Shown: in pieces, positions 16,466 through 21,644 of the stretch
How positions within the stretch are numbered: the first letter of the stretch is position 1
Layout: every line of letters begins with the position of its first letter
Assembly (NCBI GenBank): GCA_026706485.1
Contig: JAPOYR010000011.1
Location: 248,001 to 312,000 of the forward strand
Reading direction: 5' to 3'
DNA: 64,000 bases
From: Chloroflexota bacterium
GTDB taxonomy: Bacteria; Chloroflexota; UBA11872
Position numbers and translations under genes: made by a program
The notes under the pieces: generated by a model
Database searches by the model: none
The model's input: only the letters and a program-made list of their open reading frames with translations
What the model was told of the DNA's origin: nothing

Positions 16466-17554
16466 CTACGCGATCGCCTCGCAGTTGGCCGCGGGCACCG
16501 TCACCGTGCCTCCCTGCGCTCGCTGCACCCGCACGCAGATAGCCGGCGACCCGGACGGCGCGCGCGCCTCGTCCGGCGCCGGACCCACCATCACTCCTTC
16601 TTCGCCGGCATCCGGTCCGGCCACGATGCGCACCGGCAATCCATCGGCCCTCAGCTCCTCGGCCAGGGCCTCGGACGGCCCAGGGGGCAGCAGCACCTCG
16701 GACTCGCCGGGCTGCCGGCTGCCAACCACCGACACCACCTCGTCGGCGCTGGCGCGGAACAGGCGCTGCAGCGCGCGCGGCATGCGGGTGTGGCCAAAGC
16801 CCTCGGTCAGCAGCGTCGGCACGGGCGGCGTAAGGGGCGCTGAAGACGGCAACGGAAGCCCAACAATCGTTGGGGCCAGCGCCAACTCGGAGAGCGTCGC
16901 ATCGTCGGCCGACGGGGCGATGACCGCGGACACGCGGGCCTCGACGGCGCGCTGCATCCACTCGGTGCGGAGCGGGTCGGGCGTGACGAGAATCTCGCCG
17001 ATTTCGGCCAGCTCCTCGGGCCGATCGCCGGACTCGATGACGCGAAGCGGTCCGACGGCGCGACCACCCGCCCCCAGCGCCCCCGCAATGGCCAGCCCCT
17101 GCCCTTCGATCACGATCGACTCGCCCGGCGTGACGCTGACGACGGTCCCGGCCAGGCGGCAATGCAAGGCCACCTCGCGCACCTCGCGCACGAACACGGC
17201 CACCCCGGTGCGCGGACTCACGCTGGCGATCATGCCCCGGGACGGCGCCCGCCACTCCCGAGCGATGCCCATCCGGCCCATCGACTCGGCCAGCAAGGTG
17301 TCCTCTTCAACGATTTCGGCGCGGCTCACCTTGAGCAAGCCCGGCACTTCATCCAGCTGCGCGTTCAGCAGCCGGGGCAGATCGACCACCGTCACCCCGG
17401 TGCGCATGCGACCGCGGCCCCAGACTTGGCCCATCACCACGTCGTCACCCTCGTGGACGAGGATTCGGCCCGAGCTCGGGAGAACGTGCCGGCGCCGGAG
17501 CGCACCGCTCCGCACGGTCCGCCGAATGGCGCGCCGGACGCGCTCAGCCTCCAT
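16466..17554 (-). CDS. conserved hypothetical protein paired with the GlmL/MutL-like gene
   Basis: A 362-residue protein I cannot assign to a named family. The N-terminus is basic (MEAERVRRAIRRTVRSGALRRR), followed by a beta-rich region with HEGDDVVMGQVWGRGR and VSVTPGESIVIEG that recalls small barrel or lipoyl-like hairpin domains. The C-terminal half has VIAPSADDATL and LLTEGFGHTRMP. No signal peptide or membrane segment is seen. Its ATG lies 11 bases inside the upstream MutL-like gene, so the two are translationally coupled and probably work together. The start at 17554 is preferred over one 42 codons upstream within the neighbour. Confidence 0.75.
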   Translation of the reverse strand: MEAERVRRAIRRTVRSGALRRRHVLPSSGRILVHEGDDVVMGQVWGRGRMRTGVTVVDLPRLLNAQLDEVPGLLKVSRAEIVEEDTLLAESMGRMGIAREWRAPSRGMIASVSPRTGVAVFVREVREVALHCRLAGTVVSVTPGESIVIEGQGLAIAGALGAGGRAVGPLRVIESGDRPEELAEIGEILVTPDPLRTEWMQRAVEARVSAVIAPSADDATLSELALAPTIVGLPLPSSAPLTPPVPTLLTEGFGHTRMPRALQRLFRASADEVVSVVGSRQPGESEVLLPPGPSEALAEELRADGLPVRIVAGPDAGEEGVMVGPAPDEARAPSGSPAICVRVQRAQGGTVTVPAANCEAIA

Positions 17555-19337
17555 GCGGCCTCGCCGAGGCGACCGCCGTCGCGGTGGGGGGAAAGGCGTC
17601 CATCGAGCGCAACCACTGCTGCAGGCGCGCCTGGCGCTCGTCCGGCTCGTCCGGCCATACCAACGGCCGCCCGCGTGCATCGACGATGAGTCCCACCAGG
17701 CCCGCTCCCACGTTGGCTTTCAGCCGCGCCGGGCGTCCGTTGCCCAAGCCCACGTCGAAGCGCGGCTGCGGCCAGATGCGAACTTCCGCCGGCACGCGCG
17801 CGTCCCACTGAATCACGTCAAGCGCGCCCGCGCTGACCTCGCGTTCGATGCGGGCCCCCGAACTCGGGCGCACGTCCACCAGCACAGCCGGCTCGCCGGC
17901 TTTCGCGCGACCTCGAGGCGCCACGCAGACGCCGAGCGGAACCAGGGTCGAGTCGAACGCCACGCGAGCCCCGGTGTGGGCTAGCGCGCCCTGCATGGCC
18001 AGACTCGACGTTGGATCGATCGCCAGCTGCGATACGCCCACGGGTTCCAGGATGTTCACCAGCAGCAGCGCGGCCTGCACCGACCGACCGGCGTCTCGCG
18101 CCGCGCGACCCGTGAGGACGATCACATCGAGCGCCTCGTGGTCGAGCGGACTCCGGCCGTCCTCGGAGGCGCGCAACGCCTGGCGCGCCGCGGCCGTGAA
18201 CACGGCATGGGACAGCTGCAACTCGGCTGGGGTCGCCGCCACCGCCGCCGGGTGCGCCGACCGGTTCAAGGCCGTGAATCGCAGCGCCTGCGGAATCGGC
18301 TCCTCGGGCGCCCACTGCGCCACGCGCTCGATCGGCGTCTGCAGCGCGATGTGATAGGGACGCGCCAGATCGTGCCCTTGGCCCAGCCCGACGCTTACCC
18401 CCGATCCGGCCTGGAAGCCGACGATCGACACCTGGTCGTCGTCCAGCGACACCGCGGCCACCTCCAGGGACTGCTGCGTCGCCAGCTCCCGCACGGCTTC
18501 GCCCAATGCGACGGCGGTCGCATGCGCTGGGGCGTCGGCAACCTCCGCCGGCACGGTGCGTCCGGCGAAGCGGCGCGCCTTCACCGTCTGTTGCACGTCA
18601 TCGAGCAGCGCGTTCGGTTCGGTCATGTCGAGCGGATCGTCCACGCCGCCGCCCTGCACCGACACCGCGTGGACCGGAAACGCCTGCCCGAGGCTGGTGA
18701 GCGCCCGGTCATCGAGCTCGCCCCCATAGAGGATGGCGATCACGGGCACATAGCTGGACTCGCGGCCCGCCAGCCCTCCGATCAGCAGATCGGCCATGTA
18801 GGCCAGGCCCTGTCCGTCGCGATCCTCCGTCAGCGCCACGACGACGACGCTGGGACGCTGCGTGGTGATGACGTCGACGGACGCCGGACCGTCAATTCGA
18901 TCTCGAAACTCTCGCGCCGCGGTGGTGGCGCGACCGATGACGACGAACTCGCGCTCGGTCAGCGCCGCTTCGAGCGCGTCGAGATCGCGCGTGACCAGGT
19001 TGCTCACCACGAAACAGGACGGACCCGGAGCCAACCCTCGACCCACGGCCGCGGCGATGGGCGGCGTGCGCGGCTCTCCGTGCGGTCGCGCCGACGACTC
19101 GGGAATGGCGAAATAGGCCCCGGCCAGCGACTCGGCTTCCGCCACGGCCCGCTCGTAGCTCGGCGTGAGATCGAAGTGCGGCGCGTCCAGCGTGCTGGGC
19201 GCCCCGGCCACCGTGAGCAGCCGGTACGCGCCTTCGTGGCGGGCAAAGACCGCCACCCGCGTCTCCGCGCCGAGCTCGACCACCGAGACGCGATCGGAAG
19301 TGCTCGGCGCCGCCGCGCCGTCGCCGTTCAACTCCAT
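17544..19337 (-). CDS. GlmL/MutL-like ASKHA-fold protein (glutamate mutase L family)
   Basis: A 597-residue protein resembling the MutL/GlmL family, ATPase-fold proteins named from glutamate mutase operons. Supporting segments are VSVVELGAETRVAVF (phosphate-1-like, near residue 18), SIVGFQAGSGVSVGLGQG, WAPEEPIPQALRFTALNRS and LDVIVLTGRAARDAG with LLVNILEPVGVSQLAIDP near the C-terminus. No mutase subunits (GlmS/GlmE) or B12 enzymes are in the window. The protein therefore probably has another, undescribed role in this lineage together with the overlapping gene at 16466-17554. The assignment rests on motif recognition by eye. Confidence 0.72.
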   Translation of the reverse strand: MELNGDGAAAPSTSDRVSVVELGAETRVAVFARHEGAYRLLTVAGAPSTLDAPHFDLTPSYERAVAEAESLAGAYFAIPESSARPHGEPRTPPIAAAVGRGLAPGPSCFVVSNLVTRDLDALEAALTEREFVVIGRATTAAREFRDRIDGPASVDVITTQRPSVVVVALTEDRDGQGLAYMADLLIGGLAGRESSYVPVIAILYGGELDDRALTSLGQAFPVHAVSVQGGGVDDPLDMTEPNALLDDVQQTVKARRFAGRTVPAEVADAPAHATAVALGEAVRELATQQSLEVAAVSLDDDQVSIVGFQAGSGVSVGLGQGHDLARPYHIALQTPIERVAQWAPEEPIPQALRFTALNRSAHPAAVAATPAELQLSHAVFTAAARQALRASEDGRSPLDHEALDVIVLTGRAARDAGRSVQAALLLVNILEPVGVSQLAIDPTSSLAMQGALAHTGARVAFDSTLVPLGVCVAPRGRAKAGEPAVLVDVRPSSGARIEREVSAGALDVIQWDARVPAEVRIWPQPRFDVGLGNGRPARLKANVGAGLVGLIVDARGRPLVWPDEPDERQARLQQWLRSMDAFPPTATAVASARPHGG

Positions 19338-19833: not shown

Positions 19834-20553
19834 ATGAAGTCCATCTCGTTCCAATGGACCGACGGCGTCGCACCGTGGGAGGCCGAAACCGTCGTCTCCA
19901 CCGTGGCGCACATTCAAGAGGTGATGCTGGTGCTCGGCCAGCGCGCCGGCCTGAGCCTCAATCGCGGCGAGCTGCGTCCATTCGGCACCTGGGTGATTCC
20001 CGGCATCCCGCGCGGATCCCCCTATTGGAGCACGCGCTGGTACGTCGACCAGAGCCTCGACAAAGCGACGGGCCAAATCTACGCGCCAAAGTTCATCAAC
20101 GTCCTGCGCGACGAGCCCTGGCAGCAGGTCGGACCCCACTATGACGTGGCCATCGTGCACGCGGATCTGCTGGACGCCCCGGAACGCAACGCCGGCGGCA
20201 CCAGCGATCCGCACGTCCTCGCGGCCACCGAGGCCGACCTGGCCGCGGTGCTCTCCGTGCACCGCCTCCGGCGCATTCCCGAGCATGACGATCGACGCAT
20301 GGCCGTGCGCCGGCTCGCCACGCGCCGCTTCGGCCAGGTGCTCGACCTGCCCGGCCCGGACCGCGCGCAGGCGGTGGACCTGGTACAAGGCCACCGCGTC
20401 TGCACCAACGTCTGCGTCATGCGCGCCGCGCCGCGCCCCGAGGACATCCTCGAGCTCGCCCGCCAGGAGCATCGCTCCCGCATCGTCTTCTGCCGCGACT
20501 GCACCAACGACCTGCTCGACCACGTCGTCGCCACGCACTTCTCGCAGAACTGA
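19834..20553 (+). CDS. archaemetzincin-like protein lacking the HExxH zinc site
   Basis: A 239-residue cytoplasmic-looking protein from ATG 19834 (MKSISFQW); a TTG 27 codons upstream is in frame. The C-terminal part aligns with archaemetzincins. Residues 162-174, ATRRFGQVLDLPG, sit where the family has A-x-HE-x-GH-xx-GLPH, preceded by LSVHRLRR. The structural zinc motif is kept: CTNVCVM (Cys190, Cys194) and FCRDC (Cys220, Cys223). All catalytic-site His/Glu residues are replaced (R, R, Q, G). It should thus be a zinc-binding pseudoprotease, if the alignment is right. It stands alone, convergent with the adenine methylase. SRGSPYWSTRWYVDQSL-type aromatic motifs in the N-terminal half are unassigned. 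Confidence 0.6.
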   Translation: MKSISFQWTDGVAPWEAETVVSTVAHIQEVMLVLGQRAGLSLNRGELRPFGTWVIPGIPRGSPYWSTRWYVDQSLDKATGQIYAPKFINVLRDEPWQQVGPHYDVAIVHADLLDAPERNAGGTSDPHVLAATEADLAAVLSVHRLRRIPEHDDRRMAVRRLATRRFGQVLDLPGPDRAQAVDLVQGHRVCTNVCVMRAAPRPEDILELARQEHRSRIVFCRDCTNDLLDHVVATHFSQN

Positions 20554-20632: not shown

Positions 20633-21565
20633 CTAAGGCGCCGGAGTCAGGCACACCGCCCGTCGACGTGCCCGCGGGGCAGGGTGCGTGGAATCCCCAG
20701 CGAAGCTCAGCGGCCCCCGCGTAATCACTAACTCCCCAATCCGGTCATGGTGCGTGTTCTTCATCGTCACCTGGACCGCGTGGAAGCCGTGGCGGCGGAC
20801 CAGGTCCGCGATTTCGGGTGCGTGGTCGTAGGTGAGCATGAACTCGGGCGCGGCGTCGGACAGCAACCGGAACAGCCGCGGATGGTCGATCTCGAAGTGC
20901 GTATAGAGCCGACGGCCCGCGCGTTTGCCGCCGGCCGAGTAGGGCGGATCGGCGAAGACCACCGAGCCCGGCATCCCGGCAAACTCTTCGAGCAACCGCA
21001 TGCCGTCGGTTTCGCGAAAGTCGATCCGGTCCGCGTGCGCGCTGATCCGCTGTAGGCGGGTCACGATGGTGTCCGGGTACCAGCGAGACGCCAGCCCCTT
21101 ACCGCTCTCGCCGGCACGGCTGAGCGACGCGCCAGGCGCCAGGATGCCGCCGCGGCGGGTGCGGTTGAGCACCAGCGTGCGGAGGCCGCGCTCCAACGGC
21201 TCGTCCGGCTGGGTCCGCGCCAGCGCTTCCACGGCCTCGCGCGTGGGCTCGAATGCTTGAATCCGCTCGCACAGCTCGGGACCGTGATACAGGGCAGCCT
21301 TCCAGAAGGCCGCCACGTCAGGATCAAGCTCGGCCACCAGACAGCGTTCGACCAGGCCCTCCATCACCGCCGTTAGCGAGACGATGGCCCCGCCGCCGAA
21401 CGGCTCGATCAGCAGTCTGGGCTTGGGGTCTAGTCCCCCGAGCCAGGCGCGGATGTGCGGCACCAGCCAGGTCTTGCCGCCGGGATAGCGCAATGGGCTG
21501 CGCTGGGGCACCGACGCCACGTTGGCGGCGGGGATGGGGGAGTGGGGGAAGTCAAACGCTGGCAT
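20633..21565 (-). CDS. DNA adenine N6-methyltransferase (Dam/D12 class), orphan
   Basis: A 310-residue SAM-dependent DNA methylase. The N-terminal SPLRYPGGKTWLVPHI is the alpha-class start motif, EPFGGGAIVSLTAV is motif I, and VVFADPPYSAGG is the DPPY catalytic motif IV. A target-recognition region lies between. The ATG at 21565 is preferred to an in-frame start 25 codons upstream inside a repeat. No restriction endonuclease gene is adjacent, so it is an orphan methylase, perhaps regulatory. Target site cannot be read from sequence. The C-terminal tail after about residue 290 is Pro/Arg-rich and may be repeat-derived. Confidence 0.9.
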   Translation of the reverse strand: MPAFDFPHSPIPAANVASVPQRSPLRYPGGKTWLVPHIRAWLGGLDPKPRLLIEPFGGGAIVSLTAVMEGLVERCLVAELDPDVAAFWKAALYHGPELCERIQAFEPTREAVEALARTQPDEPLERGLRTLVLNRTRRGGILAPGASLSRAGESGKGLASRWYPDTIVTRLQRISAHADRIDFRETDGMRLLEEFAGMPGSVVFADPPYSAGGKRAGRRLYTHFEIDHPRLFRLLSDAAPEFMLTYDHAPEIADLVRRHGFHAVQVTMKNTHHDRIGELVITRGPLSFAGDSTHPAPRARRRAVCLTPAP

Positions 21566-21644
21566 TGGGACTAGGCGTGCCTCCCGCCGTCCGTGTTGCC
21601 GGATCCATTCCTGCGGTCCACGCACGCCGGTGGCGGCCACAAAT

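Follow-up and report, generated by a model that had tools for sequence, protein, structure and literature searches.

A family of Chloroflexota archaemetzincin homologues that has lost the catalytic HE pair

The locus

The DNA considered here, called the window throughout, is a stretch of 64,000 nucleotides from a Chloroflexota assembly of 13 contigs and 3.37 Mb. The original prediction, made from the letters of this stretch, described an open reading frame for a degenerate archaemetzincin. Its coordinates, residues 162-174 (ATRRFGQVLDLPG) and the motifs CTNVCVM and CRDC were all verified in the translation.

19834..20553 (+): gene for the pseudo-archaemetzincin (239 aa and a stop codon); based on the open reading frame, same-start full-length relatives in Chloroflexota and dN/dS

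Fifteen full-length orthologues with 46-98% identity to the window protein share the same start, MKSIS(F/V)QW. Since the N-terminus (MKSISFQW in the window protein) is conserved and close relatives carry in-frame stops just upstream, the start at 19834 is correct. The dN/dS ratio amounts to 0.04-0.07 within the window's genus and to 0.07-0.08 in the sister genus, and the protein is therefore under strong purifying selection. The reading frame thus encodes a real, strongly selected protein. That it is a decaying pseudogene, as the loss of the catalytic residues might suggest, is next to impossible given an intact frame in the homologues examined, dN/dS of 0.04-0.08 and a C-terminal end that is identical across classes.

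The immediate surroundings contain the following elements:

16466-17680 (-): open reading frame of 404 aa
17544-19337 (-): open reading frame of 597 aa
19407-19517: three tandem 37-nt repeats, located in the gap that precedes the gene
20633-21640 (-): D12-class/Dam-like adenine methyltransferase, flanked by the pseudo-archaemetzincin gene and uvrB

The two upstream reading frames are conserved together with argS in the window's family, and it is only in this family that argS and these two unnamed frames accompany the gene. Neither frame matches Pfam or NCBIfam, and the 597-aa frame has no match in the PDB either. The N-terminus encoded by this pair (VSVVELGAETRVAVF) we take to resemble a MutL/actin-like ATPase. 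The repeats are 78-81% identical to the first copy, end in TTCGTCATTCCCnCGnA(A/G)G and resemble dispersed intergenic repeats. The methyltransferase scores are weak (1.9e-7 in Pfam; 30 bits for TIGR00571, under its cut-off).

Clustering the neighbourhoods of 32 loci gave no partner gene that is shared across the phylum; neighbours are conserved within lineages only. A leucyl aminopeptidase (Peptidase M17) adjoins the gene in two distant lineages, f2 and f43. In three genera of f2 it lies 11 and 51 bp upstream (L080, L081) or overlaps slightly (L079), and in f43, which belongs to another class, it is convergent at a distance of 19 bp (L083). In four f3 loci (L046, L048, L088, L089) the gene directly adjoins a DUF4432 gene, with touching stop and start; in two f1 genomes (L015, L090) the two are no more than about 1.2 kb apart. 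Because many families were compared, the argS, M17 and DUF4432 neighbours are leads only.

Homology to archaemetzincins

Scanned as a single sequence, the window protein has 0 matches in Pfam or NCBIfam, and a single-sequence search of the PDB yielded nothing useful. Profiles of the family place archaemetzincin as the top PDB match, with E values of 0.0034 for 16 sequences, 2e-4 for 22 and 1e-4 for 35. In these alignments AAVISVxRLR lies opposite the strand RAVLSVFRL of archaemetzincins (MEROPS M54), LVxHxxGHVLxL opposite AVHEIGHVLGL, and CTNxCVMR and CxxC opposite the M54 Cys4 motif.

20242..20271 (+): AAVLSVHRLR, residues 137-146, equivalent to the M54 strand AIISLxRLR, with S141 invariant (hhalign, hmmsearch)

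Comparing 22 family members with 14 true M54 proteins from Chloroflexota by hhalign gave a clear profile-profile match (E 1.2e-13 over 128 columns; 1.2e-13 to 2.4e-14 across runs), which begins with SLDxxxGQI of the family opposite AYDPxRxQY of M54. Similarity persists with the cysteines masked (1e-8), with cysteines and histidines masked (2e-5) and with the part before the motif alone (6e-6). As null controls, the best of 100 column shuffles reached 0.005 and a reversed profile 0.31. The NCBIfam archmetzin model is matched directly by 22 of 35 members at E<=1, the best at 1.3e-10; one of them, L091, matches at 6e-8 over residues 71-226. Scanned singly, members stay at or below 32.8 bits, under the family threshold set by the curated cut-off of 145 bits, which would be why the family is unlabelled.

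The same picture is seen in the predicted structure. An AlphaFold2 model from a 22-sequence alignment has a pLDDT of 87.2 and a pTM of 0.87; it replaced an earlier model from a shallow alignment with a pLDDT of 67.5. When it was compared with the PDB by Foldseek, AmzA of A. fulgidus ranked first (4axq, E 4.1e-8, TM 0.79 by target), and metzincins of other families came next. In the model, the window protein keeps the metzincin core, that is, the mixed sheet, the former active-site helix and the Met-turn. The original prediction that the fold is conserved thus holds at the level of the model.

These results establish the family as an archaemetzincin homologue whose likeness is not due to chance. 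There is very little room left for an unrelated protein of the treble-clef or zinc-ribbon type with a likeness to archaemetzincins in cysteine spacing alone. Such a protein would fit the empty single-sequence Pfam and NCBIfam scans, but the similarity survives masking of cysteines and histidines, is also found in the half that precedes the motif, and comes with a metzincin fold in the model.

Loss of the catalytic zinc site

To describe the family, 39 diverse members with pairwise identities of 23-96% (median 33%) were aligned. The region of the former active site comprises three features:

20317..20355 (+): end of the former HExxH helix, residues 162-174 (ATRRFGQVLDLPG; alignments, tree)
20353..20397 (+): insert, residues 174-188, between the active-site helix and the Cys4 site (alignments)
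20398..20400 (+): V189, where the third zinc histidine would stand; His in 17 of 39 relatives (39-member alignment)

In the window protein the first histidine is replaced by R164, the glutamate by R165 and the second histidine by Q168, while G167 is invariant. The claim that all zinc histidines and the catalytic glutamate are replaced is therefore borne out by R164, R165, Q168 and V189. The proposed position-by-position match of residues 162-174 to A-x-HE-x-GH-xx-GLPH stands for the first histidine, the glutamate and the second histidine. It needs correction at its end: the third histidine corresponds to V189 and not to G174, because 15 extra residues (174-188) precede C190. This insert lies in the loop that carried the third histidine and, together with the residues up to 190, is predicted to form a β-hairpin with strands 181-184 and 187-190.

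The HE pair of HExxH is found in 0 of 39 members, and with it the catalytic zinc site HExxHxxGxxH is absent from the family. By comparison, 46 of 46 readable true M54 proteins from Chloroflexota have HExxH and the third histidine. The histidines show a graded loss among the more distant members: the first is kept in 29, the second in 21 and the third in 17 of the 39. All three remain in 17 members and none in nine, the window's genus included. Orthologues with the same replacements occur across this genus, which as a whole lacks zinc histidines (R164, R/S165, Q168, V189).

Could members that keep HxxGH...HC still be zinc peptidases with another general base? The 17 members with all three zinc-binding histidines would allow for it, but the HE pair is present in no member, and the window protein and eight others have no zinc histidine at all. 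The minimal activity of the AMZ-tk glutamate mutant E183Q also argues against this (PMC4681839); a zinc histidine mutant of AMZ-tk had about 20% (PMC4681839). We regard a remaining peptidase of this kind as highly improbable.

The Cys4 site and a new set of invariant residues

The second metal site of archaemetzincins is retained in two halves:

20401..20421 (+): C190-TNV-C194-V-M196, first half of the Cys4 metal site and Met-turn (39-member alignment)
20491..20502 (+): C220-RD-C223, second half of the Cys4 metal site (39-member alignment)

C194 and C220 are present in 39 of 39 members, C190 and C223 in 37 each, and M196 in 33, with leucine in the other six. The original observation that CTNVCVM and CRDC survive extends to the family, in which 37 of 39 members have all four cysteines; the two exceptions, both from f109, lack C190 and carry histidine for C223. 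Compared with the published motif CX4CXMX17CXXC, the window protein has the spacing CX3CXMX23CXXC, in which the motif is recognizable with a longer stretch before CxxC. From this conservation we infer that the site binds metal in the window protein.

Conservation is also high in segments that lie outside the old motifs:

19984..20043 (+): aromatic segment GTW...PYWSTRWY, residues 51-70, family-specific, with G51, W53 and Y70 invariant (39-member alignment)
20113..20145 (+): EPWQQVGPHYD, residues 94-104, family-specific (39-member alignment; absent from the M54 alignment)
20548..20550 (+): C-terminal N239; 37 of 39 members end in Asn and two in Ser, and no member extends beyond this position

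Twelve residues are invariant in all 39 members (W8, G51, W53, Y70, P95, W96, Q97, H102, S141, G167, C194, C220), and another five are found in 38 (Y64, W69, E94, D104, L112). EPWQQVGPHYD thus contributes P95, W96, Q97 and H102 to the first group and E94 and D104 to the second. Most of the near-invariant residues have no M54 counterpart, and the old catalytic positions drift freely across the 39 members. Purifying selection has shifted from the catalytic site onto this new invariant set. A fixed final asparagine at a median identity of 33% suggests that the C-terminus itself is recognized or buried. With 239 residues the protein is about 65 residues longer than core archaemetzincins of ~165-175 residues; the argument from conservation of length made in the original prediction therefore fails.

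Distribution and evolutionary history

The family occurs in 33 of 400 genomes sampled across Chloroflexota and spans eleven family-level lineages in three classes. In the window's family 18 of the 19 genomes sampled carry it, with the window's own genome included in the count; it is found in 20 of 199 genomes of the class of G136 and in 5 of 29 of the class of G153. A scan of genome contigs with the single sequence gave matches in Chloroflexota only, and searches of plasmids, phages and viral contigs found no relatives. Two candidates from the first search of the phylum (G364 and G234, E about 1e-3) were short stretches of long unrelated proteins and disappeared with the larger profile.

In a tree built with the trait columns left out, the family and M54 are split by a branch with 100/100 support. 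As the HE pair is absent from every member, the glutamate was presumably lost before the family radiated. Each histidine state needs 5-7 changes on the tree, and the histidines therefore eroded repeatedly after the loss of the glutamate. The window's own genome has no true M54. True M54 co-occurs with the family in G434 and G551, draft genomes with an estimated contamination of 8% and 1%, respectively; since the two genes lie on different contigs there, the family and M54 are paralogues.

Comparison with known systems

The known system closest in structure is AmzA (MEROPS M54, PF07998, NF033823; PDB 4axq, 3zvs, 4a3w), which shares the fold (TM 0.79 by target) and the order of strands and helices. 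Common to both are also the glycine of HExGH, the Cys4 motif CxNxCVM/CxxC and the Met-turn, and 'SLD..GQ' of the family corresponds to 'YD..RxQY'. In contrast to AmzA, the window protein has neither the catalytic glutamate nor the zinc histidines, carries a 15-residue insert before the Cys4 site and is about 65 residues longer. The family adds the set of aromatic residues, EPWQ, H102 and C-terminal asparagine, and scores under the NCBIfam cut-off. In AmzA the four cysteines bind a structural zinc. A Cys4 mutant of the M. kandleri enzyme was unstable (PMC3427221).

CarG offers a precedent for a non-proteolytic member of the fold: this archaemetzincin of M. xanthus is associated with zinc, binds CarD and does not work as a protease (PMC3427221, PMC4374960, PMC9304148). 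It carries glutamine in place of the catalytic glutamate (PMC3427221). The likeness to CarG (NF033824, Myxo_non_zincin) lies in the absence of proteolysis and an intact Cys4 site, and CarG illustrates that the fold can act as a transcription adaptor. The Chloroflexota family shows the same combination, with an M54 fold in the model, loss of the catalytic glutamate and retention of Cys4. CarG has about 170 residues; the family contains more divergent replacements and insertions.

Does the likeness extend to a strict CarG-type adaptor that works with a CarD/CdnL-like RNA-polymerase binding protein? CarG is the characterized non-proteolytic archaemetzincin, and its model is matched weakly by 7 of 35 members (best E 0.007; 16.1 bits for the best relative against a cut-off of 250 bits). 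Members are far closer to active archmetzin, however, as L091 with 6e-8 against 0.007 for the CarG model. The window's genome has no match to NF033824 and no free CarD/CdnL; its single CarD_TRCF_RID match sits in a 1160-aa reading frame of Mfd/TRCF size. With CarD absent from this genome the strict model was rejected as improbable, and only the principle of CarG carries over.

Other systems bear a looser resemblance. Human AMZ1 is also an archaemetzincin with an altered active site. The change there is the replacement of the third histidine (PMC3427221), whereas the Chloroflexota family always loses the HE pair itself. Inactive ADAMs and other metallopeptidase pseudoenzymes, from a different metzincin family, have lost the zinc site or the glutamate and retain the metzincin fold for binding; a review of metallopeptidase pseudoenzymes does not mention M54, archaemetzincin or CarG (PMC11266112).

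Function and meaning

Taken together, we consider it probable that the window protein is a catalytically dead M54 paralogue that serves as a Cys4-zinc scaffold and acts by binding a partner. The glutamate would have been lost before the family radiated and the histidines then piecemeal, as expected once catalysis is irrelevant. The Cys4 zinc would hold the domain together, and the protein may bind a partner, most likely a protein or peptide, via the new conserved surface, the remodelled cleft or both. By analogy with CarG, its action may be adaptor-like. The new invariants (W8, W53, Y70, EPWQ, H102 and the terminal asparagine) suggest a binding or adaptor role. The retained binding role put forward originally is thus plausible, based on the strong purifying selection, these residues and the CarG precedent.

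The invariant residues could equally form a new catalytic site. The protein would then be an enzyme on the archaemetzincin fold, different from an M54 peptidase, with an active site built from E94, Q97, H102, D104 and W8/W53/Y64/W69/Y70. In favor of such an enzyme, each of these residues is shared by 38-39 of 39 members at a median identity of 33%, while the old catalytic positions drift. No known enzyme with the same motif was found by sequence in Pfam, NCBIfam or the PDB, though, and the invariants are mostly aromatic, which is more typical of a binding surface. We therefore judge a new enzyme unlikely, and favor the catalytically dead scaffold that binds a partner.

For the family across the phylum we offer a tentative view: a common ancestor may have lost catalysis and gained a new site, with the fold reused as a module for ligand or partner recognition or as a new enzyme.

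Archaea, some bacteria and vertebrates possess archaemetzincins, about whose biological role little is known; the bacterial CarG, which is not a protease, has an established role. No earlier description of the present family was found in the open literature, subscription journals and InterPro lying outside this search. It appears to constitute a second, deeper, non-proteolytic archaemetzincin lineage besides CarG, apparently unlabelled so far. Annotation by fold or motif would mislabel its members as metalloproteases. The graded loss of the zinc site, from three histidines to two, one and none, provides a natural series for the non-cutting role of the fold.
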